64,000 bases of DNA from Chloroflexota bacterium. Its GTDB lineage: Bacteria > Chloroflexota > Anaerolineae > Aggregatilineales > Phototrophicaceae. The position numbers and the translations under genes are program-made. The notes beneath the pieces are model-generated. The model was not told the origin of the DNA. It was given only the letters and a program-made list of their open reading frames with translations, and made no database searches. The stretch spans positions 124,001 to 188,000 of the forward strand of contig JAPOXG010000058.1 of NCBI GenBank assembly GCA_026707225.1. The letters are read 5' to 3'. Below, in pieces: positions 23,277 to 51,279 of the stretch (the stretch's first letter is position 1; every line of letters starts with the position of its first letter).

Positions 23277-23401
23277 TCCTGCCAAGCCTACGGCGAACCG
23301 ACCCGCGATGCCTGCGGCGAGCGGCGCCAGACCAGCTGAATCTTGTAGCGCATTTGCCGCCGTATTATATTATTGGAGTGGATCCGGGGAGTCGCGGGCC
23401 G

Positions 23402-24757
23402 ATGTCGACGCTTCTTTTACAGAACATTCGCTGTCTGGCGACATTTGATGATGAAGGGCGCGAACTGGAGGGCGGCTGGCTGCTGATTCGCGGCCGCGTG
23501 ATAGAGGGCCTCGGCGCCGCCGACGAGGCGCCGCCGGAAAAAGCCGATCGCGTCATTGACCTCTCCAATCACGTTGCGCTGCCGGGCTTGGTCAACACGC
23601 ATCACCATATGTTTCAGAGCTTGACGCGCGTCATGGGACAGCAGGAAGACCTCTTTGGCTGGCTGCGCGCTTGTTATCCGCTGTGGGCGCAGATGCGGTC
23701 GGAGCATGTCTATGCCGCCGCCCGCCTGGCAATGGCCGAATTGCTGCTATCCGGCTGCACCACCGCCAGCGATCATCATTATGTCTTCCCCAATGATGTG
23801 CGGCTGGAAGACGAGATCCGCGCCGCGCAGGAGGTGGGCATTCGCTTTCATGCGGCGCGCGGCAGCATGAGCCTGGGTGAAGGGCAAGGCGGCTTACCAC
23901 CCGATCATCTGGTTGAGCGCGAGCCAGACATCCTGCGCGACACGCAGCGCCTGATCGAGACCTGGCACGACCCCTCGCCGCAATCGATGCTGCGGATTGT
24001 GGTGGCGCCCTGCTCGCCCTTCAGCGTGACGGTGGATTTGATGCGCGAGTCGGCGGCGCTGGCGAGAGCCTATGGCTTGCAAATGCATACGCACCTGGCG
24101 GAAACCGACGCCGATGTCGCTTACAGCGTCGAGCGCTTTGGCACGCGGCCGGGCGAATACGCCGAAGACATGGGTTGGTTGGGCGAAGACGTTTGGCACG
24201 CCCATTGCGTCAAACTGAACCACGATGAAGTCCGGCGCTTCGGGCGCTCAGGCACTGGCGTCTGCCACTGCCCGTCGTCGAATATGCGGCTGGCTTCGGG
24301 AATCGCGCCGATTCGAAAAATGCTCGATCATCGCGTCAACGTAGGCTTGGGCGTCGATGGCTCCGCCTCCAACGACAGTGGTCATCTTCTGGGCGAAGCG
24401 CGACAGGCGCTGCTATTGGCGCGCGCCCTGGGCGATCCGGCCGCTTTGTCCGCCCGCGAGGCGCTTCAAATGGCGGCCCGTGGCGGCGCCGCTGTGCTCG
24501 GGCGAGATGATATCGGGCAGATCGCGCCGGGAAAATCCGCCGATGTCGTCGCCTTTCGGCTGGACGGGCCAGGAATGGCGGGCGCCATGCACGACCCGCT
24601 GGCCGCGCTGGTCTTCTGCCAGCCGCCGGCGGTCGATCTGTCGATCATCAACGGCGAGATTGTGGTGGAGGACGGGGAATTGCGCAGCGCCGACTTGCCT
24701 AACTTGATCGAGAATCATAATCAATTGTCGGCTGAGCTGATTCGAGGCGGGCGCTGA
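23402..24757 (+). CDS. 8-oxoguanine deaminase-type amidohydrolase
   Basis: A 451-residue metal-dependent deaminase of the TRZ/ATZ-SsnA superfamily. The metal and active-site groups are complete: NTHHHMFQSLTR, MHTHLAE, WHAHCVKL, and GVDGSASNDSG with the catalytic Asp. The HHHMFQ and DGSASND forms are those I associate with 8-oxoguanine deaminase (8-oxoguanine to uric acid), though related s-triazine or isoxanthopterin deaminases are possible. ATG 23402 gives a sensible N terminus (STLLLQNIRCLATFDDEG); an in-frame reading from 23354 adds only non-conserved residues. Adenine deaminase follows 21 bases later. Confidence 0.87.
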   Translation: MSTLLLQNIRCLATFDDEGRELEGGWLLIRGRVIEGLGAADEAPPEKADRVIDLSNHVALPGLVNTHHHMFQSLTRVMGQQEDLFGWLRACYPLWAQMRSEHVYAAARLAMAELLLSGCTTASDHHYVFPNDVRLEDEIRAAQEVGIRFHAARGSMSLGEGQGGLPPDHLVEREPDILRDTQRLIETWHDPSPQSMLRIVVAPCSPFSVTVDLMRESAALARAYGLQMHTHLAETDADVAYSVERFGTRPGEYAEDMGWLGEDVWHAHCVKLNHDEVRRFGRSGTGVCHCPSSNMRLASGIAPIRKMLDHRVNVGLGVDGSASNDSGHLLGEARQALLLARALGDPAALSAREALQMAARGGAAVLGRDDIGQIAPGKSADVVAFRLDGPGMAGAMHDPLAALVFCQPPAVDLSIINGEIVVEDGELRSADLPNLIENHNQLSAELIRGGR

Positions 24758-24778: not shown

Positions 24779-26485
24779 ATGTCGATTGTTGATCGGCTGG
24801 CGGCTGCTCGCGGCGATACGCCGGCGGATCTCGTTTTGCGCAATGGTCAACTGGTCAATGTGATCAGCGGCGAGATATATCCGACCGACATTGTGATCCA
24901 CGACCGGCATGTCGTGGGGCTTGGCGCGGGCTATGCAGGCCAGCGGGAAGTCGACCTGGCTGGCAAGTACGTCGCGCCCGGTCTGATCGATGCCCACGCG
25001 CACATCGAGAGCAGCCTGGTGACGCCGCCGGAATTCGCGCGGGCGGTGCTGCCCCATGGCGTGACCACCGTCATCACTGATCCGCACGAGATCGCCAATG
25101 TCCTCGGGCTCGAGGGCATGCGATTCATGCTGGAGCGCGCCAAAAACGTCCCGCTCAATATGTATGTAATGGCCTCCAGCTGCGTCCCCGCCACCGATAT
25201 GGAGACAACGGGCGCCCGCCTGGAAGCGGAGGATCTGGCGCCGCTGGTGGATCACCCTTGGGTGCTCGGCTTGGCCGAATTGATGAATTATCCCGGCGTG
25301 GCGCTGGGCGATGAAGGCATGTTGGACAAGATCGCCCTGTTCGAGCATCGTGTCCTGGATGGTCACGCGCCCGACATGAGCGGGAAGATGCTCAGCGCCT
25401 ACGTGACCGCCGGCGTCCAGAGCGAACATGAATGCACGACGCTGGCCGAGGCGCGGGAGAAACTGCGGCTGGGCCTGACGGTCTTCATCCGCGAGGGGAC
25501 GACCACACGCAATCTCAAGCCCTTGCTGCCGCTGATTACGGCGGAGAATCACAGCGCCATTTGCTTCTGCACCGACGATCGCATTCCGGCCGATCTCATT
25601 GATCACGGGTCGATCGATTACATGCTGCGCATCGCCATCGCCGAGGGCGTCGATCCCATGATCGCGATCCGCATGGGCAGCTACAACACCGCTCGCCACT
25701 TTGGCTTGAAGAAGTACGGAGCGGTGGCGCCGGGCAAGTACGCCGATTTGCTGGTCCTGCCCGACCTGCGGGACTTCAGACCCGAGCAGGTTTATCGCGG
25801 CGGCGAATTAGTGGCGCAAAACGGCGCGATGGTCGGCGAGCGCGGCGTATCGCGTCGGATTGATTTGCGAAGCACGGTGAACATCGGCGCCGGCAAGTTG
25901 GATTTCAGCATTAAGGCGAAGGGCGAGCGCATTCGCGTCATCGGCACAATCCCGGATCAGGTGGTGACGGACCAACGGGTGGAATGGGCGAAGATCGTCG
26001 ATGGCTTCGCCCTCAGCGATATCGAGCGCGATATTCTCAAGTTCGCCATGGTCGAGCGTCACCGGGCGAGCGGAAATATCGGCTTGGGCTTCATCAAGGG
26101 CTTCGGTTTGCGGCGCGGCGCCATCGCCGGCACCGTCGCGCATGATCACCATAATCTGGCGGTCATCGGCGTTGATGACGTCAGCATGCGCAGGGCGGTG
26201 GCGGCCATCGTCGAGATGGGCGGCGGCTTGGCGCTCGCTGACGGCGAAGCGGTCCTGGCCCGTTTGCCCTTGCCCGTCGCCGGCTTGATGAGCGAACTGC
26301 CGATTGAAGCGGTGCGCGATCAATACGACGAGATGATTGCAGCGGCGCGCAAGCTGGGAAATCAAATGAGCGATCCCTATATTGTCATGAGTTTTATGGG
26401 GCTGGAAGTAATTCCCAAACTCAAACTGACTGACTTGGGATTGGTGGATGTCGAACAATTCAAATTAGTTGATCTATTTGTCTAA
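24779..26485 (+). CDS. ade: Adenine deaminase
   Basis: A 568-residue AdeC-type enzyme converting adenine to hypoxanthine and ammonia with a dinuclear metal centre. It has the DAHAHIESSL metal motif, TTVITDPHEIANV, LAELMNYPGV, FCTDDRIPADLI and the late AHDHHNLAVIGVD segment, as in family members. Length and domain order (amidohydrolase core plus C-terminal adenine deaminase domain) are normal. It sits between the 8-oxoguanine deaminase and the YgeY-type hydrolase and feeds xanthine dehydrogenase encoded downstream. Confidence 0.96.
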   Translation: MSIVDRLAAARGDTPADLVLRNGQLVNVISGEIYPTDIVIHDRHVVGLGAGYAGQREVDLAGKYVAPGLIDAHAHIESSLVTPPEFARAVLPHGVTTVITDPHEIANVLGLEGMRFMLERAKNVPLNMYVMASSCVPATDMETTGARLEAEDLAPLVDHPWVLGLAELMNYPGVALGDEGMLDKIALFEHRVLDGHAPDMSGKMLSAYVTAGVQSEHECTTLAEAREKLRLGLTVFIREGTTTRNLKPLLPLITAENHSAICFCTDDRIPADLIDHGSIDYMLRIAIAEGVDPMIAIRMGSYNTARHFGLKKYGAVAPGKYADLLVLPDLRDFRPEQVYRGGELVAQNGAMVGERGVSRRIDLRSTVNIGAGKLDFSIKAKGERIRVIGTIPDQVVTDQRVEWAKIVDGFALSDIERDILKFAMVERHRASGNIGLGFIKGFGLRRGAIAGTVAHDHHNLAVIGVDDVSMRRAVAAIVEMGGGLALADGEAVLARLPLPVAGLMSELPIEAVRDQYDEMIAAARKLGNQMSDPYIVMSFMGLEVIPKLKLTDLGLVDVEQFKLVDLFV

Positions 26486-26560: not shown

Positions 26561-27775
26561 ATGGTAGACCATACAAAACTTCAAGACTTGCGGCATCGCG
26601 TGGAGGAACAGCGGGAAGAGATTATCGCCTTTCTGCGCGAGATCTGCGCCATACCGAGCATGGAAAATCAAATTCGCGCTTGCGGCGAGCGCATCGCTGA
26701 GGAGATGAAGCGCCTCGGCTATGACGACGTCTACTGGGACAGGATGGGCAATATCGTCGGGATGATAGGCCATGGCGACCGCGTCTTGCTCTACGACAGC
26801 CACATCGACACGGTTGGCATCGGCGACCCCGACGAGTGGGAATGGGATCCCTTCGAGGGCAAAATCGAAAATGGCGTTTTGTACGCCCGCGGCGCCTGCG
26901 ATGAAAAGGGCAGCACGCCTGGCATGGTTTACGGCTTGGCTCTGGCCCGCGATCTAGGATTGCTGGAGGGATACACCGCTTACTATTTTGGCAACATGGA
27001 AGAATGGAATGACGGGCAGGCGCCCCATGCCTTTGTTCAAACCGAAGGCGTCAAGCCGGACTTCGTCGTCATTGGCGAGCCCACTCGAATGCAAATCTAT
27101 CGGGGCCACAAGGGAAGGGTCGAATTCAAAATTGTGGCCAAGGGCAGGAGCGCCCACGCCGCCAGCAACTACCTGGGAGACAACGCCATCTACAAGCTGC
27201 TGCCCATCATTGAACGCATCAGCCACATCGAGCCGGAGCTGGGCGATCATGACTTTCTGGGCCAAGGGCGGATCACCGTCACCGACATGGAAGTCAAGAC
27301 GCCCAGCATCAACGCCGTGCCCGATGAGGCGACTATATATGTCGACCGCCGCATCACTTTTGGCGAAGAACCCGAGACCGAATTGAAACGTCTTCAAGCG
27401 ATCATTGGCGAGCGAGACGATATCCACGCTGAAATCCTGGTTTACGACGAGCCGAGTTACACCGGCTTTGTTTTCCCGCTGGACAAGATTTATCCGGCCT
27501 GGGCTTATGAAGAAGATGAGCCGATAGTGAAGGCCGGCTTATCGGCGGCCGAGGTGCTATATGGTCACGTGGACACCGGCAAGTGGGATTTCTCCACCAA
27601 TGGCATCTACTGGGCGGGCAAGGCCGGCATCCCCAGCATCGGCTTCGCGCCGGGCAATGAGATCCACGCGCATACGGTGCTGGACCAGGTGCCGCTGGAA
27701 GATGTCGTCCGCTCAACCGAATGGTACGCGCTATTCCCGGCCATCCTTCAGCAAACACTAAACGGCGCGCGTTGA
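26561..27775 (+). CDS. ygeY: YgeY-type M20 family metallohydrolase
   Basis: A 404-residue M20 peptidase/deacylase. Metal ligands are in DSHIDTVGIGD, ARGACDEKGS and NMEEWNDG (catalytic Glu), then VIGEPT and a C-terminal His in GNEIHAHTVLDQVPL. The family is the 'selenium metabolism-linked' YgeY group, encoded next to ygeW in the enteric purine cluster. YgeY is thought to act on an open-chain product of purine breakdown; the exact substrate here is inferred. ygeW follows after an 83-base gap that holds a palindromic repeat. Confidence 0.9.
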   Translation: MVDHTKLQDLRHRVEEQREEIIAFLREICAIPSMENQIRACGERIAEEMKRLGYDDVYWDRMGNIVGMIGHGDRVLLYDSHIDTVGIGDPDEWEWDPFEGKIENGVLYARGACDEKGSTPGMVYGLALARDLGLLEGYTAYYFGNMEEWNDGQAPHAFVQTEGVKPDFVVIGEPTRMQIYRGHKGRVEFKIVAKGRSAHAASNYLGDNAIYKLLPIIERISHIEPELGDHDFLGQGRITVTDMEVKTPSINAVPDEATIYVDRRITFGEEPETELKRLQAIIGERDDIHAEILVYDEPSYTGFVFPLDKIYPAWAYEEDEPIVKAGLSAAEVLYGHVDTGKWDFSTNGIYWAGKAGIPSIGFAPGNEIHAHTVLDQVPLEDVVRSTEWYALFPAILQQTLNGAR

Positions 27776-28899: not shown

Positions 28900-29859
28900 A
28901 TGATCGATAAACTGGTGGTGGTGGCGATCGGCGGCAACTCGCTGATTCCGGACCCGCGCAACCCCCATATCGACGAGCAATGGGAGGCGGTGCGGGAAAC
29001 CTGTCGTCACATCGCCGATATGATCGCCGACGGCTGGCAGGTAATCATCACCCACGGCAATGGTCCCCAGGTCGGCTACATTATGCAGCGATCCGAGATC
29101 GCCATGCGCGAGGCCGGCATCCATGACGTGCCGTTGGACCTGGTGGTCGCCGATACTCAGGGCAGCATCGGCTATATGCTGCAGCAGGCGCTGGACAATT
29201 CGCTGCGGCGGGTCGGCATGAATCACACCGTCGCCACCATCATCACCCAGATGCGCGTCGATCCAGAGGACCCGGCCTTCGATCAACCGGACAAACCCAT
29301 CGGCGGATTCATGTCACGGGCGCAAGCCGACAAGGCCGAGGCTGAAGGCTGGCAGGTCTTCGAAGACGCCGGCCGCGGCTGGCGGCGCGTGGTCGCCTCG
29401 CCCAAGCCTCTCGTGGTCAACGAGATTAACGCGATTCAGGCGCTTGTGCTGGCCGGTTATATCGTGATCGTTTGCGGCGGCGGCGGCGTTCCCGTCGTGC
29501 GCAATGAGGTCGGCAGTCTGCGAGGCGTCGCCGCCGTGATCGACAAAGACCGCGCGAGCAGCTTGCTGGCGCAGACGCTGCGCGCCGATCTGCTGCTGAT
29601 CTCGACCGGCGTGGAAAGAGTCTGTCTGGATTTCAACAGTCCGCGCGAACGCAAGCTGGACGAGATCACGCTGGAAGAAGCGCGCCGCTACCTGGAAGCG
29701 GGTCATTTCGCCCGCGGCAGCATGTACCCCAAGATTGATGCGGCGATTGACTTCGTGCACAATGGCGGTCCGCGCGCGATTATCACCAGTCCGACCAATA
29801 TCACGCGGGCGCTGCACAATGAAACCGGCACGCGAATCGTGCCCGGCGGCTCAGGTTAA
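28900..29859 (+). CDS. arcC: Carbamate kinase
   Basis: A 319-residue amino acid kinase-fold enzyme that converts carbamoyl phosphate and ADP to carbamate and ATP. Signatures are VVAIGGNSLIP, ITHGNGPQVGYIMQRSE, VADTQGSIGYMLQQAL, VCGGGGVPVV, AVIDKDRASSLLA and SMYPKIDAAIDFV. It corresponds to yqeA of the enteric yge cluster and with ygeW forms the energy-conserving end of the predicted pathway. A 145-base gap follows (29860-30004) in which I see nothing certain. Confidence 0.95.
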   Translation: MIDKLVVVAIGGNSLIPDPRNPHIDEQWEAVRETCRHIADMIADGWQVIITHGNGPQVGYIMQRSEIAMREAGIHDVPLDLVVADTQGSIGYMLQQALDNSLRRVGMNHTVATIITQMRVDPEDPAFDQPDKPIGGFMSRAQADKAEAEGWQVFEDAGRGWRRVVASPKPLVVNEINAIQALVLAGYIVIVCGGGGVPVVRNEVGSLRGVAAVIDKDRASSLLAQTLRADLLLISTGVERVCLDFNSPRERKLDEITLEEARRYLEAGHFARGSMYPKIDAAIDFVHNGGPRAIITSPTNITRALHNETGTRIVPGGSG

Positions 29860-41217: not shown

Positions 41218-42642
41218 ATGTGGAAAGCCTACCATAGCGTCAGCACCATCGACGAGGCTTTGGCGCTTTTGAACGATCAGGGCGGCGCGGCGCGCATTGT
41301 CGCCGGCGGCACCGACTTGATCATCGAGATGGAGCGCGGCCAGCATCCGCAGCTGGAGACGCTGATAGACATCACGCGGGTGGCGGACCTGGATCGGATT
41401 GCTCTGAGAGACGGCAGGATCGTCCTGGGTCCCCTGGTTACGCATAATCACGTTGTCGCGAGCGAGCTGATCCGCCAACGGGCGCTGCCCCTGGCCCAGG
41501 CCTCCTGGGAAGTTGGCGCGCCCCAGATCCGCAATCGCGCCACCGTCGCCGGCAATCTCATCACCGCTTCTCCCGCCAATGACACCATCACCCCGTTGAT
41601 CGCTCTGGAAGCTGAAGTCACGCTGACCTCGGCCGCCGGCGAGCGCGCCATGAAACTGGCGGACTTTTACCGCGGCTTTCGTCAGACCGTTCTTCGCCCC
41701 AATGAGCTTCTGCGCGAGATACGGATTCCGCCAATGGGCGATGATCAACGCGGCTTATTCCTGAAGCTGGGCTTGCGGCGCGCGCAGGCGATATCCGTCG
41801 TCGACGCGGCTGTCATCGTCCGTCTTGACAGTCAAGGCCGGGTCAGCGACGCCCGCGTCGCCCTGGGCAGCGTCGCGGCGACCATCGTGCGCGCCCCGGC
41901 GGCCGAAGCGTATTTGAACGGCAAATGCTTGACAGAAGAAACCGTCGCCGAAGCCGGGCGGCTGGCCAGCGCGTCGGTCCGGCCCATTGATGATGTGCGC
42001 GGCAGCGCCGAATACCGGGCGGAAATGGTGAAGATTCTGGTGGCGCGCGCCCTGCGTCAGCTGGCGTCAGGTGAACCGATTGATAATATCCCAGTGGCGC
42101 CGCCGATGCTCTGGGGCGCTGACGAAGGCATCGTCAAGCGCGGGCTGCGGGCCTCAATCGCGCATTCGACTGACCAGCCGATAAAGAGCCGCGTGAATGG
42201 CGTCGATGTAATCATCGCGACGGGCCAGCAAAAGTCGCTGCTGCATTGGCTGCGCGATGATGTCAAGCTTCCCGGCGCGAAAGAAGGCTGCGCCGAAGGC
42301 GAGTGCGGCGCTTGCACCGTCTTCCTCGATGATGTGGCGGTCATGTCTTGTATGGTACATGCCCCGCGCGCGCATGGCGCCGAAGTCGTCACGGTCGAGG
42401 GCTTGCAAACCGGCCAAACGCTGCATCCGATCCAGCAAGCCTTCATTGATCAAGCGGCGGTGCAATGCGGCTACTGCACACCGGGTTTTCTCATGTCGGG
42501 CGCCAAGCTGCTCGAAGAATTCGACGCGCCCGATACCGAACAAATCAACTACAGCATCAGCGGCAATTTGTGTCGCTGCACCGGCTATTACAAGATCGTG
42601 GACGCCTTCCGTCAGGCGGCGCGCATGAAAGCGGAAGTCTAG
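41218..42642 (+). CDS. xdhB: Xanthine dehydrogenase FAD/2Fe-2S fusion subunit
   Basis: A 474-residue protein combining two subunits. Residues 1-285 are the FAD-binding part (IVAGGTDLIIEMERG, GAPQIRNRATVAGNLITASPANDT). From about 325 on is the ferredoxin-like part, with the plant-type cluster ligands in EGCAEGECGACTVFL...SCM and the second cluster in QCGYCTPGFLMSG and LCRCTGYYKIVDA. The order FAD then 2Fe-2S is the reverse of the eukaryotic xanthine oxidase order but known in bacterial XdhA/HcrB-type fusions. GAGG precedes ATG 41218. The molybdenum subunit is encoded at 44443, after one intervening gene. Confidence 0.93.
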   Translation: MWKAYHSVSTIDEALALLNDQGGAARIVAGGTDLIIEMERGQHPQLETLIDITRVADLDRIALRDGRIVLGPLVTHNHVVASELIRQRALPLAQASWEVGAPQIRNRATVAGNLITASPANDTITPLIALEAEVTLTSAAGERAMKLADFYRGFRQTVLRPNELLREIRIPPMGDDQRGLFLKLGLRRAQAISVVDAAVIVRLDSQGRVSDARVALGSVAATIVRAPAAEAYLNGKCLTEETVAEAGRLASASVRPIDDVRGSAEYRAEMVKILVARALRQLASGEPIDNIPVAPPMLWGADEGIVKRGLRASIAHSTDQPIKSRVNGVDVIIATGQQKSLLHWLRDDVKLPGAKEGCAEGECGACTVFLDDVAVMSCMVHAPRAHGAEVVTVEGLQTGQTLHPIQQAFIDQAAVQCGYCTPGFLMSGAKLLEEFDAPDTEQINYSISGNLCRCTGYYKIVDAFRQAARMKAEV

Positions 42643-42654
42643 CAAGGCTAGGTC

Positions 42655-44409
42655 ATGGACCGAACGGTACCGCAAACGGGCAGCGAAGAAATCGAACTGT
42701 ACATGCGAACCTATTATTCGCTTTTGCGTTCGAGCGACAGCATCAAAATCGAAACCCTGGTCGAGAGCCACCTGGCCATGCGTTCGTCATTGCATGAGCA
42801 TGCCGCCGCCGTCGAGCCACCCGCCTCCGCCTTGATGTATAGCGCGCTGCGTCTGCCGCCTTGTATTGTTCAGACGGAAGAAGTTTTAATCGGGCAGATG
42901 AGCCGCTCGTTCATCGCCGCCGGTTACCGCAACATCGAGGCCTGGCAGCGCGTATTTGCGACGGGCCGCCGCCGGCGCGCCCACTTTGACGGCGAAAGCA
43001 TCCTGGCGGTCTATGTCGTCAGCCGTTCGGATATTGACGACCTGGTGCCAATTTTGACTGCCTTTCAAATCGAGTGGAACAAGCTGCATGATCTGCTGCA
43101 GAATCCCGATCTCTCTGATTTGCTGGGACCCTACGTCGATGCCGGCAATTTGCCGACGGAAGACTTTGCCGCCCTCGCCGCCGCTTTACGCATCCGCGTG
43201 AGCGATCTGAAGCGACTGCACTTGCTGTGGGGGGAAGACTTCGTCAACAACTTGCTCCAAATTCGCGAGCATCGCAAGAGCATGACCCTGCGCCTGATCG
43301 CCGGTTCCTTATCCGATTATCGGCGCGCCACCGCTTCCTGGTGGAATGAACTCTGCGAGGAATTGTCGCAGGCCGGGATTGATCCCGGTGAGCGCCCGGT
43401 CTACTTCGTTTCCAGCAATACCCATTCTTTGATCAACCTGCTCGCCGGATTCGCTCGCCGATTTGAAGAAAGCCTGATTGATTACATCGAATCGTTCGAA
43501 GAGAAATCCCTGCTTACCGAATACGAAGACACCAAGGAGAGTTATCACAAGAGCACGGACAACTTCCTCTATTTTGTCTTGCGGCGCTATCTATCGGAAA
43601 AAGGCAGCCAAGCGCGCCATGTTTTCGCCAGGGAAGAAAATCGCTTGGGCATCCATCGCGTGCCCAGCCGGCATGGCTTCGAAATGGAAACGCAAGTCAT
43701 CGAATTGGGCAAGCTGGAGGCGCGCTGGTTCGATCCGCGTTTGGGCCGAGCCGATGACCTGGCGCCACTGCGCCACAGCAATGCCATCATCATCAATATC
43801 GATTATCCGCTGGGCATGGCATCGTATGAATTGCTGAGCCGCATCTCGCAGGGCGCTGGTCGGCTGGATGGCGTCTATGTCATGGGCAAGGCGGCCACCT
43901 TGAATGGCCGCATCGGCGATATGATGATTCCCAACGTGATCCACGACGAACACTCGCAGAACACCTATCTGTTCAGAAATTGCTTCACCGCGCGGCACGT
44001 GCGCAGCTATATGCAGCATGGCAACGTCTTGGACAATCAAAAGGCGGTGACGGTTCTCGGCACCTTTTTGCAGAATCCTCATTATATGAGCGTCTTCTAC
44101 AAGGAAGGCTACACCGACATCGAGATGGAGGGCGGTCCTTATCTGTCGGCGGTTTACGAAGCTTTCCGTCCGCAGCGTCATCCGATGAACGAGATCGTCA
44201 ATCTGCATTCGGTCAAATTCGATATCGGTTTCCTGCATTACGCATCGGACAAGCCGATGAAGACGGGCCAGAATCTGGGCGCGGGAAGCCTGAGCTACGG
44301 CGGCGTCGAACCGACCTACGCCGCTGCCATCGCCATTTTGCGCCGCATCTTTTACAACGAGACGGAAAAATTGATTGAAACTACCTTCGAGGCGCTGCCC
44401 GCCTTTTGA
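42655..44409 (+). CDS. 584-aa protein of unknown function with a nucleoside-phosphorylase-like C-terminal region
   Basis: Two parts are visible. Residues 1-345 are helical and charged (EELSQAGIDPGERPVYFVSSNTHS, RFEESLIDYIESFEEKS) without a known motif. Residues about 375-584 resemble the phosphorylase fold: NAIIINIDYPLG (376), VYVMGKAATLNGRIGDMMIP (405-427), a DEHSQNTY segment, and DIEMEGGPYLSAVYE (488-502), which is like the M-E loop of NP-I phosphorylases. It may be the family named DUF6909, but I cannot verify that. Its place between the two xanthine dehydrogenase subunits, 12 bases after one and 33 before the other, ties it to purine metabolism. A nucleoside/base phosphorylase or hydrolase role is inferred, not shown. 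Confidence 0.7.
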   Translation: MDRTVPQTGSEEIELYMRTYYSLLRSSDSIKIETLVESHLAMRSSLHEHAAAVEPPASALMYSALRLPPCIVQTEEVLIGQMSRSFIAAGYRNIEAWQRVFATGRRRRAHFDGESILAVYVVSRSDIDDLVPILTAFQIEWNKLHDLLQNPDLSDLLGPYVDAGNLPTEDFAALAAALRIRVSDLKRLHLLWGEDFVNNLLQIREHRKSMTLRLIAGSLSDYRRATASWWNELCEELSQAGIDPGERPVYFVSSNTHSLINLLAGFARRFEESLIDYIESFEEKSLLTEYEDTKESYHKSTDNFLYFVLRRYLSEKGSQARHVFAREENRLGIHRVPSRHGFEMETQVIELGKLEARWFDPRLGRADDLAPLRHSNAIIINIDYPLGMASYELLSRISQGAGRLDGVYVMGKAATLNGRIGDMMIPNVIHDEHSQNTYLFRNCFTARHVRSYMQHGNVLDNQKAVTVLGTFLQNPHYMSVFYKEGYTDIEMEGGPYLSAVYEAFRPQRHPMNEIVNLHSVKFDIGFLHYASDKPMKTGQNLGAGSLSYGGVEPTYAAAIAILRRIFYNETEKLIETTFEALPAF

Positions 44410-44442: not shown

Positions 44443-46677
44443 ATGCCCGCCGTGATCCCTGAACAAACCAAGGTCATCAGCGAATCTATCAAGCGCATCG
44501 ACGCCCATGGCAAGGTCACGGGCGAGGCGCTTTATCCCGGTGATATCAATATCGAGGGGCAGTTATGGCTGCGCGTCAAGTTCAGCGAACGCGCCCATGC
44601 CCGCGTCTTACGCGTTGACGCCAGCAAAGCCGAAGCCTTGCCGGGCGTCGCCCGCGTATTCACCAGCCTTGACGTGCCAATCAATGAATACGGGCTCGTG
44701 CTCAAAGACCAGCCCGTGCTTTGTGGTCCCGGCGGGGGAAAGGCGGGCACTGATGTGGCGCGCTGTTATATGGATATGGTGGCGACCGTCGTGGCGGAGA
44801 CCGACGAGATTGCGCAAGAGGCGCTGGATCTTATCGACGTGCAATATGAGGATCTGCCCGCCGTCTTCGATCCGGAAGAGGCGATGGCTGAAGCGGCGCC
44901 CCAACTCCATCCGGACAGTCCGCGCAATCTGGTGACGCGGTATCGCATTCGCCGCGGCGACATGGAGGCGGGCTGGGCGGCCGCTGAGATCGTGGTGGAA
45001 GGCGAATACGAAACGACCTGGCAAGAACATGCCTATTTGCAGCCGGAAGCGGGCCTCGCCTACATTGATGAAGAAAATCGCGTTACGGTCCTGGTTGCGG
45101 GCCAGTGGACGCACGAAGATCAAGAGCAGATTTATCATGCGCTGGCTCTGCCCCCGGAACAGGTGCGCGTCATCTATCCCGCCATTGGCGGCGCATTTGG
45201 CGGCCGCGAAGATATGACAGTGCAAATTGTGTTGGCGCTGGCCGCCTGGCAGCTGCGGGTTCCGATCAAGATTCAATGGAACCGGGAAGAATCCATCCTC
45301 TATCATCACAAACGGCATCCGATCAAGGTGCGGACGAAATGGGGCGCCACGGCGAACGGCTTGCTGACCGCCGCCGCGGCCGAAGTGATTGGCGATGCCG
45401 GCGCTTACAACTACACATCAAACAAGGTGCTTGGCAACGCCCAGCTGACCGTCACCGGACCTTACGAGATTCCCAACGTCCATGTCGATACCTTTACGGT
45501 GTACACCAACAATATCCCGTCGGGGGCTTTTCGCGGCTTTGGCGCGCCCCAAGCGCTTTTCGCCGCCGAAGGACAGATGAATCGCCTGGCGGCCGCGCTG
45601 AAGCTGGACCCGCTCGAGATCCGCCTGAAGAACAGCATCCGCGAAGGAAGCATTGGCTCGGTGGACACGCCCTTTCCCGCCGGCGTGACCATGCCGCAAG
45701 TGTTTGAAGCCTGCGGGCGAGAGTCCTGGTGGGGGCGCTCAGCAGCAGGCTGGAGGCTGCGGGCCGCTTCGCAACCGGCCGATCAACACCGGCGCCGCGG
45801 TCGTGGCATCGCGGGCGGCTTCAAGAATGTCGGCTTCAGCTTTGGTTTTCCCGAGCATTGCTGGGCTGGCATCGAATTGCGGGGGAGCGCCGAAATCGAA
45901 AAGGTTATCCTCTACCATGCCGGCGCTGATGTCGGGCAAGGGGCGCATACCGCATTGAGTCAGATGGCGGCTGAGGCCGTCGGCATGCCATTCGAAACGG
46001 TTGAGATTGTCGCCTCCGATACTGCTTCGTCCGAGTCTGCGGGCAGCGCGTCCGCCTCGCGCCTGACTTTCATGTCCGGCAACGCCATTCGCGGCGCCGC
46101 CGAGATCGCCTTGCGCAAATGGCAGGACGAAGAGCGCCCGGCCCTGGGCGAGTTCATGTACCATCCGCCGGCGACCACGGCCTTCGATCCGGAGACCGGC
46201 CGGGCCGAGCCAAATTTCGCCTATGGCTACGTAGCCGAAGCGGTTGAGGTTGAAGTCGATATCGAGACGGGGCAAGTGCGGCTGCTGGAAGTCGTCTGCG
46301 CCAACGATGTGGGCAAGGTCATCAATCCGCAGCAGCTGCAGGGGCAGATTGAAGGCGCGATCGTGCAGGCGCAAGGCTACGCCCTGATGGAATACTTGGT
46401 ATCCGATGAAGGGCGGATACTCAATCCTTATCTCTCGACATATCTGATCCCGACATCGCTTGACGTGCCGCCGCGGATCAAGTCCGTCATCTTGGAGAAT
46501 CCCGATCCCATCGGACCCTGGGGAGCGCGGGGCATGGCGGAAATGCCCTTTCTTCCCCTAGCGCCGGCCATCGCCGCTGCGATTTATGACGCGGCCGGCA
46601 TCTGGATCGATTCCCAGCCCTTCACCGCGCAGAAGGTGCTGCAGGCGCTGCGCCAGCGCGGCATCGGCGCCATCTGA
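44443..46677 (+). CDS. xdhA: Xanthine dehydrogenase molybdenum-binding subunit
   Basis: A 744-residue molybdopterin-containing hydroxylase subunit that should oxidise hypoxanthine/xanthine. It has IKRIDAHGKVTGEALYPGDI at the start, FGGREDMTVQIVLALAA, FRGFGAPQALFAAEGQMNRLA (Mo-cofactor loop), GADVGQGAHTALSQMAAEA, and GPWGARGMAEMPFLPLAPAI with the base Glu. The Arg-rich stretch at about 425-450 (WWGRSAAGWRLRAASQPADQ) is somewhat unlike its surroundings, but the frame stays intact and the pterin motifs on both sides are in register. It needs the MocA/YqeC fusion encoded just downstream for cofactor maturation. Confidence 0.93.
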   Translation: MPAVIPEQTKVISESIKRIDAHGKVTGEALYPGDINIEGQLWLRVKFSERAHARVLRVDASKAEALPGVARVFTSLDVPINEYGLVLKDQPVLCGPGGGKAGTDVARCYMDMVATVVAETDEIAQEALDLIDVQYEDLPAVFDPEEAMAEAAPQLHPDSPRNLVTRYRIRRGDMEAGWAAAEIVVEGEYETTWQEHAYLQPEAGLAYIDEENRVTVLVAGQWTHEDQEQIYHALALPPEQVRVIYPAIGGAFGGREDMTVQIVLALAAWQLRVPIKIQWNREESILYHHKRHPIKVRTKWGATANGLLTAAAAEVIGDAGAYNYTSNKVLGNAQLTVTGPYEIPNVHVDTFTVYTNNIPSGAFRGFGAPQALFAAEGQMNRLAAALKLDPLEIRLKNSIREGSIGSVDTPFPAGVTMPQVFEACGRESWWGRSAAGWRLRAASQPADQHRRRGRGIAGGFKNVGFSFGFPEHCWAGIELRGSAEIEKVILYHAGADVGQGAHTALSQMAAEAVGMPFETVEIVASDTASSESAGSASASRLTFMSGNAIRGAAEIALRKWQDEERPALGEFMYHPPATTAFDPETGRAEPNFAYGYVAEAVEVEVDIETGQVRLLEVVCANDVGKVINPQQLQGQIEGAIVQAQGYALMEYLVSDEGRILNPYLSTYLIPTSLDVPPRIKSVILENPDPIGPWGARGMAEMPFLPLAPAIAAAIYDAAGIWIDSQPFTAQKVLQALRQRGIGAI

Positions 46678-46848: not shown

Positions 46849-48210
46849 ATGCGATTCGAGCAAGCTTTTGATGTGGCGCCCGGCGATGTCGTCGCCTTCA
46901 TCGGCGCGGGCGGGAAGACATCGCTGCTGGTCGGATTGGGTTATGAGCTGGCTGAAGCCGGCTGGCGCGTCTTGGCGACGACGACCACCAGACTCTCGAC
47001 CGATCAGCTGGACTTATTTCCCTGTACGATGGCGGCCGGCGCCGCTCCGCGGGCGATCTCGGAAGCGCTGACCGAGCACCAATTCGTCTTGCTGCATGAA
47101 CAGATTCGCAGCGGTTATGTTTACGGTCCGCCAGTCGAATGGACCAGGCAGCTGCTGGACAGCGTGGACTCGGATATCCTGCTGGTCGAGTCGGATGACG
47201 CCGCGGGCATGCCCTTTAAGGCGCCGCTGGCGCATGAACCCCAGATTCCCTTGGAGACATCGCTGGTCATTTCGATCGCTTCCCTCCGCGCTCTGGGCTT
47301 GCCGCTCGATAGCGACCATATCTACAATCCGGCCGCGATGATCGCCCGCTACGGATTCGTCGAGAACAGCCCGGTCAAATCGCCCTGGCTGGCGCAGGTG
47401 CTGCGTGATGAAGCGCTCGGTTTGCGCGGCGTCCCGGCGGGGGCTCGCGTCATTGTATTTCTAAACCAGACGCCGGCGCGCGGGTTCATGCGCGGGCGGG
47501 CGCGGATGATCGCCAGGCTCAGTTTGCAGAGCGCGCGGATAGACGCGGTCGCGCTGGGGGCGGTGCGCGGCGCCGAACCCGTATTTGAATTGCAGCGGCG
47601 CGTCGGCGCGCTCGTGCTGGCCACCGGAGAGTCGCCCTGCAAAGATGGCGACCGGATGCTGCGGCCATCCGACCGGGGCCGGGCTGCCGTCGCGCAGATT
47701 ACGGAGAAAGTCCTTCGTTCGCGCATTGAACATATTCGCCTCGTCACCGGCCGGCGGGCGCCTGAGGTGCGGGCGGCGACCAGACCGCTCGGGGTGAAAG
47801 CGATTCACGATCGGGCGCATCAGGCGGGCGGGGCGGTTACCGCGCTGAAAGCCGGGCTGCGCGCGCTGCCGGAGCAGCTATCGGCAGTGCTTATTGTACC
47901 CGGCGATCAGGCGCGCCTTCAGCCGAAGGTGATCTATCACATCTTGGCCGCCTATGCGCGCGGAGATGGCGATTTCATCGTTCCCCGTTACCGCATGCGC
48001 TCAGGCTACCCTGTTCTCATTGGAAAACGCTATTGGCAGGACCTGCTCAAGATGCCGCGCCAAAGCGATTTTCGCGCCATCGCCCAGCGCTTTGTAAACG
48101 ACATCACTTTTCTGAATGTCGATAGCGATAGCATCTTTCATGATCTCGGGCGCCGGCCCCTGCATCGTGCGGACCGCCACGACGCGCGGGTGGGCAACCG
48201 CGGCCGCTAA
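46849..48210 (+). CDS. YqeC-MocA-like fusion, molybdenum hydroxylase maturation
   Basis: A 453-residue protein. Residues 1-230 are YqeC-like: FIGAGGKTSLLVGLGYELAE is a P-loop-like start, then TTTTRLSTDQLDLFP and LLVESDDAAGMPFKAP. Residues 240-453 resemble a MobA/MocA nucleotidyltransferase (VGALVLATGE at the expected start, VIVPGDQARLQPKVI, SGYPVLIGKRYW). The usual L-A-A-G-x-S-x-R-M-G...K loop is degenerate here (LATGESPCKDGDRM). In enterics yqeC and mocA are adjacent genes serving selenium- and Mo-cytosine-dependent hydroxylases. The stop overlaps that of the convergent channel gene. The 171-base gap before it shows no gene. Confidence 0.85.
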   Translation: MRFEQAFDVAPGDVVAFIGAGGKTSLLVGLGYELAEAGWRVLATTTTRLSTDQLDLFPCTMAAGAAPRAISEALTEHQFVLLHEQIRSGYVYGPPVEWTRQLLDSVDSDILLVESDDAAGMPFKAPLAHEPQIPLETSLVISIASLRALGLPLDSDHIYNPAAMIARYGFVENSPVKSPWLAQVLRDEALGLRGVPAGARVIVFLNQTPARGFMRGRARMIARLSLQSARIDAVALGAVRGAEPVFELQRRVGALVLATGESPCKDGDRMLRPSDRGRAAVAQITEKVLRSRIEHIRLVTGRRAPEVRAATRPLGVKAIHDRAHQAGGAVTALKAGLRALPEQLSAVLIVPGDQARLQPKVIYHILAAYARGDGDFIVPRYRMRSGYPVLIGKRYWQDLLKMPRQSDFRAIAQRFVNDITFLNVDSDSIFHDLGRRPLHRADRHDARVGNRGR

Positions 48211-50439: not shown

Positions 50440-51279
50440 TTGTACAGTCGAGCCGATTTCCAGCGCGCCGCTTCGGTCGTCCAGTCGCGTACATCCTTGC
50501 GCCCGACGATCGGCCTGGTCTTGGGCTCCGGTTTGGGCCAACTGGCCGACGGCTTGGGAGATCGCGCGGTAATACCTTACGCCGATATCCCCGGCTGGCC
50601 CGTTTCGACGGTGGAAGGGCATCAGGGCAACCTCGTCATTGGGGAATTAGAAGGGCAGATTGTCGCCGTACAGCAGGGGCGCGCCCACTTCTACGAAGGT
50701 TACACGATGGCCGAGGTGACGTTTCCCATACGCGTGATGAAGGAAATGGGTATCCATAGCGCGCTCTTGACGAACGCGGCCGGCGGTGTGAACAAGCGCT
50801 ATCAAGTCGGCGATCTCATGCTGCTGGAGGATCATATCAATCTGCCTGGGATGGCGGGCGCAAACCCGCTCATGGGGCCGAACGATGAGGCGCTCGGCCT
50901 CCGTTTCGTCGGCATGTCGCAGGCTTATGATCGGCGGCTTCGGCAGCGGGCGCTGGAAGTGGCGCGCGAACATGATATTCCACTGCATAGCGGCGTTTAT
51001 GTCGGCTTGTCCGGTCCTTTCTTCGAGACGCCGGCGGAAATAAGAATGGTCCGCGCTTTGGGGGCCGATGCGGTGGGCATGTCAACCGTCAACGAAGTGC
51101 TGGTCGCCCGTCACGCCGGCATGCGTGTTTTGGCCTGTTCCGGCATCACCAACCAGACCATCGACGCGGTCGACACCGAGCTGGAAACCAATCATGAAGA
51201 GGTCCTGGAGGCGGGCAAGATCATCGTCCCGCGCTTAATCACGATACTGAAAGGTCTGCTCAGCAATTTCCCAATATGA
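50440..51279 (+). CDS. punA: Purine nucleoside phosphorylase (trimeric type)
   Basis: A 279-residue NP-I phosphorylase that splits inosine/guanosine to base and ribose-1-phosphate. GLVLGSGLGQLADGL, QQGRAHFYEGYTMAEVTFPIRVM, LTNAAGGVNKRYQVGDLMLLEDHIN, GVYVGLSGPFFETPAEIRM and the base-binding SGITNQTIDA match the trimeric PNP family. The TTG start at 50440 lies 7 bases after GGGAG. It supplies free bases to adenine/guanine deamination and to xanthine dehydrogenase encoded upstream. The next gene overlaps by four bases (ATGA). Confidence 0.95.
   Translation: MYSRADFQRAASVVQSRTSLRPTIGLVLGSGLGQLADGLGDRAVIPYADIPGWPVSTVEGHQGNLVIGELEGQIVAVQQGRAHFYEGYTMAEVTFPIRVMKEMGIHSALLTNAAGGVNKRYQVGDLMLLEDHINLPGMAGANPLMGPNDEALGLRFVGMSQAYDRRLRQRALEVAREHDIPLHSGVYVGLSGPFFETPAEIRMVRALGADAVGMSTVNEVLVARHAGMRVLACSGITNQTIDAVDTELETNHEEVLEAGKIIVPRLITILKGLLSNFPI

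Follow-up and report, generated by a model that had tools for sequence, protein, structure and literature searches.

A DUF6909 protein encoded between xanthine dehydrogenase-type genes of a Chloroflexota bacterium as a candidate purine N-ribosidase with a predicted nucleoside phosphorylase fold

The DUF6909 protein (PF21850) that is encoded by a Chloroflexota bacterium between two genes of an Xdh-type molybdenum hydroxylase is read here, with a probability of about 0.52, as a highly diverged member of the nucleoside phosphorylase (NP-I) fold group; the protein would cleave the N-glycosidic bond of purine nucleosides or nucleotides and feed the purine/urate-degradation cluster that surrounds its gene. 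The family, the core fold, two invariant catalytic motifs and the content of the cluster were computed from the window, the whole stretch of 64,000 nucleotides that was analysed, and from its relatives. Catalysis on a purine ribosyl compound is likely, while nucleotide specificity and the role of the predicted enzyme in a pathway are plausible. A phosphorylase- or hydrolase-type nucleoside step had already been named in the original prediction; judged from the model it is the best remaining reading, and it is strengthened by the purine-degradation cluster, of which that prediction made no mention.

The reading frame opens with ATG and its 584 codons give a protein of 584 amino acids. The start codon is judged to be right because the N-terminus M-[DE]-R-x-[VI]-P is common to near relatives, and a chance reading frame is dismissed since DUF6909 is present in 140 of the 400 Chloroflexota genomes sampled. 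The position between xdh genes with gaps of 12 bases upstream and 33 bases downstream, as originally described, was re-measured with the same outcome, all three genes lying on the forward strand. PF21850 is matched with an E-value of 8e-214 (711 bits against a cut-off of 27) over positions 1-534 of the 535 in the Pfam model and residues 32-566 of the protein. It had been claimed that the N-terminal 345 residues match nothing; this is corrected by the span of the family, but what was meant by it holds in so far as PF21850 carries no function in Pfam. The name DUF6909 is absent from the 5.39 million open papers searched, no match was returned by NCBIfam, PHROGs or PADLOC, nor by Pfam beyond DUF6909 itself, and viral contigs searched for the family gave no lead to function. 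With phmmer and a profile search of PDB sequences no relative was noticed, the single match (NUP155) being meaningless. Coordinates of all features are collected in Table 1.

Table 1. Position and basis of the features discussed for the DUF6909 gene, its product and the neighbouring genes
Feature	Position in window	Strand	Basis
8-oxoguanine deaminase	23354..24757	+	NF006055, 676 vs cut-off 532
Adenine deaminase	24779..26485	+	TIGR01178, 611 vs cut-off 472.5
YgeY-family hydrolase	26561..27775	+	TIGR03526, 457 vs cut-off 321.5
Carbamate kinase	28900..29859	+	TIGR00746, 377 vs cut-off 358
SsnA aminohydrolase, marker of the reductive uric-acid pathway (PMC12507026)	34422..35771	+	NF005540, 497 vs cut-off 444
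Luciferase-family oxidoreductase, probably F420-dependent; putative yanthine reductase of PMC12507026	39511..40518	+	Pfam, NCBIfam
Xdh-family fused FAD + 2Fe-2S subunit (xdhB+xdhC)	41218..42642	+	Pfam, NCBIfam
DUF6909 (PF21850) protein, predicted NP-I-fold purine N-ribosidase	42655..44409	+	Pfam match, structure model
N-terminal domain, residues 1-217	42655..43305	+	Separate AF2 model, pLDDT 94
R105-R106-R107, invariant in 37 members; proposed to bind an anion or complete the active site	42967..42975	+	Alignment
NP-I fold core, residues 226-570	43330..44364	+	VIA structure comparison
Invariant N255, following the first core strand; may correspond to AMP nucleosidase N205	43417..43419	+	Alignment by eye
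Helical insertion in core after first strand, residues ~258-330	43504..43644 (residues 284-330)	+	Secondary structure of model
K412 of invariant GKAA, approximately at phosphate-site Ser/Thr of phosphorylases	43888..43890	+	Alignment, by eye
E490-M491-E492, NP-I ribose-binding M-E motif, invariant	44122..44130	+	Alignment and model
D532 of invariant S-D-x-P, position of NP-I catalytic Asp	44248..44250	+	Alignment and model
Xdh-family molybdenum-binding subunit (xdhA)	44443..46677	+	Pfam, NCBIfam
Fused YqeC + MocA-like molybdenum-hydroxylase maturation protein	46849..48210	+	TIGR03172, 122.7 bits, cut-off 73
Ordinary purine nucleoside phosphorylase (PNP)	50440..51279	+	PF01048

The structure model was built from an alignment of 37 members, reaching down to about 40% identity, and has a pLDDT of 90.2 and a pTM of 0.91. 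It strongly supports an NP-I fold for residues 226-570. In the VIA comparison this part of the predicted model matches the purine nucleoside phosphorylase 4m7w with a Z of 16.9, the best obtained (rmsd 3.0 over 216 aligned residues), and the AMP nucleosidase 2guw with a Z of 16.2 over 240 residues, tied with the PNP rows. Foldseek returned 537 PDB matches at E<=0.001, with AMP nucleosidase first, then uridine phosphorylase, MTA nucleosidase and PNP. Chains of AMP nucleosidase alone align over nearly the whole length, with an rmsd above 20 A, which means that this enzyme and DUF6909 do not arrange their two domains in the same way. The comparison with NP-I folds, originally proposed as a check, thus bears out the fold in the model, but the core does not begin at residue 375 and run to 584 as was predicted: it starts near residues 226-248, and a helical insertion splits it after the first strand.

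At the level of sequence the relationship is silent. Profile-profile comparison left DUF6909 unlinked to AMP nucleosidase, PNP, MTAP and the MTA-nucleosidase-like family, and it is blind to some true homologues, as the same tests detect AMP nucleosidase against the MTA-nucleosidase-like family (1.9e-6) but miss its genuine relatives PNP and MTAP. The DUF6909 protein likewise has no PF01048 match, in the setting of tests that also miss AMP nucleosidase against PNP. The NP-I assignment is therefore based on the predicted structure and the placement of motifs, no sequence method detecting the link, and this absence is counted against the purine N-ribosidase reading.

In NP-I enzymes the Glu of the M-E loop binds ribose and a catalytic Asp protonates the purine; this Asp is a mark of purine enzymes and is not known from uridine phosphorylases. 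Both motifs singled out originally, G421-D-M-M-I-P426 and D488-I-E-M-E-G-G494, were located in strongly conserved columns. Residues E490, M491, E492, S531, D532 and P534 are identical in 37/37 members (down to ~40% identity). In the model, E490-M491-E492 lies at the junction of strand 486-490 and helix 493-504, D532 is the final residue of the last long strand (523-532), and by secondary-structure element M491-E492 and D532 match the NP-I active-site positions. A purine-type substrate is favoured by the catalytic Asp at D532. The corresponding residues of AMP nucleosidase, M404, E405 and D428, are named as those conserved in these enzymes (PMC9584410). By eye, the counterpart of AMP nucleosidase R381 is position 475, which is R in 25/37 members and Pro here, and that of K436 is position 539/540, variable among the 37; that neither has an invariant counterpart also weighs against the purine N-ribosidase reading.

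For the function we infer catalysis, purine specificity, the choice of nucleotide or nucleoside and of hydrolysis or phosphorolysis, and the metabolic role. In the proposed mechanism, Glu492, adjacent to Met491, binds the hydroxyls of the ribose, and protonation of the purine at N7 by Asp532 would release the free base, whose place at C1' would be taken by water or phosphate. The invariant Lys412 and Asn255/His257, together with Arg105-107 of the N-terminal domain, may bind the phosphate of a nucleotide or inorganic phosphate; hydrolysis of a nucleotide, as in AMP nucleosidase, is favoured over binding of inorganic phosphate. In Anaerolineae, the adenine, hypoxanthine or xanthine released would be passed to adenine deaminase and the Xdh-type molybdenum hydroxylase.

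The N-terminal domain alone has no convincing match in the PDB (best values: E 0.3 with Foldseek, Z 4.0 with VIA). The low-scoring VIA rows listed are mostly NP-I enzymes in one register, in which residues 33-217 of the model lie on the first 90-147 residues of the NP-I enzyme, and this suggests a degenerate first half of an NP-I domain. The N-domain of AMP nucleosidase is not among the matches listed, and comparison of the N-domain with the core within DUF6909 yielded nothing beyond the overlap that follows trivially from how the two segments were cut. Active sites of NP-I enzymes include residues of an adjacent subunit; a half-domain of this kind could provide these residues from the same chain, and the invariant R105-R107 and S123-x-S-D-x-D-D129 are candidates for completing the site. 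It can be speculated further that DUF6909 is made of one and a half NP-I domains, the N-terminal half replacing the neighbouring subunit and completing a single site (GRRR, SxSDxDD), and that this self-complemented purine nucleotide nucleosidase replaces AMP nucleosidase in Chloroflexota and feeds purine/urate degradation; so complete a scheme is considered quite unlikely.

The gene content of the window is in agreement with a role in purine breakdown. Judged from gene content, positions 22398-48210 look like the Chloroflexota form of a reductive uric-acid/purine degradation cluster. On the forward strand the degradation genes up to SsnA are followed by F420 biosynthesis, the luciferase-family gene, Xdh with DUF6909, YqeC-MocA and the ordinary PNP; a carbamoyltransferase gene on the same strand is the one degradation gene not over its curated cut-off. 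The F420 genes, named from sequence plus the matching gene order in other clusters, are situated inside the cluster and adjoin the putative F420-dependent yanthine reductase. Chloroflexota SsnA clusters with a luciferase-family gene were described in 2025 as variants of reductive uric-acid degradation (PMC12507026), and the window fits that description. In other Anaerolineae (G168, G355) the SsnA-F420-oxidoreductase-Xdh cluster has DUF6909 16-22 kb away, and in three loci (L188, L191 and L193, of G168, G355 and G216) another Xdh type, about 33% identical, directly follows the luciferase-family gene. Within the class SsnA is found more often than DUF6909, across the phylum less often; with frequencies so different, DUF6909 is no fixed part of the uric-acid pathway and is better explained as supplying it than as one of its core steps.

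The xdh neighbourhood has to be considered separately. Of 116 loci, 63 have an xdh gene directly beside DUF6909, with few exceptions in the order xdhBC-DUF6909-xdhA and all on the same strand. This order is kept in some 60 Anaerolineae loci, among which DUF6909 identity falls to roughly 50%. Mapped on a FastTree tree, the label of xdh linkage needs 9 changes, against 38 with shuffled labels, and judged by this tree the linkage is ancient within a broad Anaerolineae clade and was lost several times. One related locus (L032/L096) has lost both xdh genes and keeps YqeC-MocA beside DUF6909. The gene does not always neighbour xdh, a point on which the original prediction had been made to depend: 53 of the 116 loci have no adjoining xdh, some owing to contig ends. 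The linkage is therefore not family-defining, being conserved in one broad Anaerolineae clade, outside which no shared neighbours of DUF6909, purine or other, were found; this too is counted against the purine N-ribosidase reading.

It had also been proposed that the protein assists assembly of Xdh, and a factor for assembly or maturation of the molybdenum hydroxylase might be expected from a gene placed between two xdh genes and followed by YqeC-MocA maturation genes in some 60 loci. Such a factor should occur wherever Xdh does, but XdhA (E<=1e-150) was found in 158 of 199 genomes of the host's class and DUF6909 in 59 of the same sample; many DUF6909 genomes are without adjoining xdh, and the predicted NP-I fold with its catalytic motifs points elsewhere. 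The proposal was rejected on distribution and is regarded as most improbable. Since xdh is commoner than DUF6909 and the unlinked loci share no neighbours, the role is neither Xdh assembly nor a function for Xdh alone. The hydroxylase itself requires caution: the window Xdh scores under every curated xanthine-dehydrogenase cut-off, its best solved relatives are nicotinate dehydrogenase and 4-hydroxybenzoyl-CoA reductase, and residue 332 of the large subunit is Asn in place of Arg880 of bovine XDH in 58/58 sequences compared, with Glu kept at the equivalents of Glu802 and Glu1261. Its substrate may hence differ from xanthine, and with this uncertainty the exact base that DUF6909 would supply is uncertain as well, a further point against the purine N-ribosidase reading.

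DUF6909 occurs once in the source genome; the 14 named genomes searched as controls lack it. A megaplasmid of Persicobacter (Bacteroidota) carries a distant member (26% identity, PF21850 E-value 1.5e-64, annotated as hypothetical), whose gene (L172:5245-6933) is flanked by genes for a methyltransferase and a mechanosensitive channel. Record JAHHHY010000001.1 (L113), titled Pleurocapsa minor, a cyanobacterium, has the Anaerolineae xdh-DUF6909 operon and is probably a mislabelled Chloroflexota MAG. One frame of 1100 amino acids (L042:8959-12261) is either a fusion or a chance read-through; the first 550 residues gave no Pfam match to a fusion partner.

Intact motifs in an enzyme fold are compatible with another substrate, which counts against the purine N-ribosidase reading, and DUF6909 could be an NP-I enzyme acting outside this pathway, on some other ribosylated compound or a signalling nucleotide, its linkage to Xdh being a habit of the lineage. 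The single-copy family is indeed widespread in Chloroflexota lineages (for instance families f30, f48 and f31) that are unlinked to purine clusters and have no shared neighbours of DUF6909, and most DUF6909 genomes outside the class are without SsnA at the threshold used. On the other hand a purine-like base is indicated by the catalytic Asp, and the gene has long stayed in the xdh operon, its cluster also including adenine deaminase and SsnA, so that this explanation is thought rather unlikely. A protein that has retained the NP-I fold without catalysis, for binding, sensing or a structural role, would account for the undetectable sequence similarity to active NP-I families and for phosphate-site residues of AMP nucleosidase not being kept. 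It is nevertheless very doubtful, for E492, D532 and many residues of the pocket region are invariant in 37 diverse members, and such residues are usually the first to go in dead enzymes.

If the purine N-ribosidase reading is true, a far branch is added to a textbook enzyme fold, release of purine bases in Chloroflexota without canonical AMP nucleosidase is explained, and the recently described reductive uric-acid pathway gains an entry step. It is the first concrete, bench-testable function proposed for DUF6909, a single-copy family in about a third of sampled Chloroflexota genomes.

Among known systems, AMP nucleosidase (Amn, EC 3.2.2.4; PF10423 + PF01048; PDB 1t8s, 2guw, 7uwq) resembles DUF6909 in having an extra N-domain before the NP-I core, the M-E and S-D-x-P motifs (S-D-K-P of Amn is exact in the window member), an Asn after the first core strand, aligned by eye, and a long loop after the Asp. 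The two differ in that identity is about 10% with no profile-level signal, DUF6909 has 584 residues and a helical insertion in the core compared to 484 in Amn, and its N-domain is not matched to that of Amn. PF10423, the canonical N-domain, gave no match up to an E-value of 1 in the window protein and is absent from 201 Chloroflexota genomes. As PF10423 is absent, the 5'-phosphate residues R381/K436 are not strictly kept and K412 lies approximately at the Ser/Thr site, DUF6909 is not assigned to AMP nucleosidase proper. Hexameric PNP, uridine phosphorylase and MTA-SAH nucleosidase (PF01048) have the same core fold (Z 16-17) and the positions of the ribose Glu and purine Asp in common with DUF6909, which is twice as long and has Lys412 approximately where these enzymes carry the phosphate-site Ser/Thr. 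With the reductive uric-acid clusters of E. coli, Clostridioides and Chloroflexota (PMC12507026), the window shares SsnA, YgeY, carbamoyltransferase, carbamate kinase and Xdh, and with those of Chloroflexota also the luciferase-family F420-type oxidoreductase. The searched text of that article has no mention of a nucleosidase; compared to the clusters that it describes, the window has in addition DUF6909, adenine deaminase and 8-oxoguanine deaminase.
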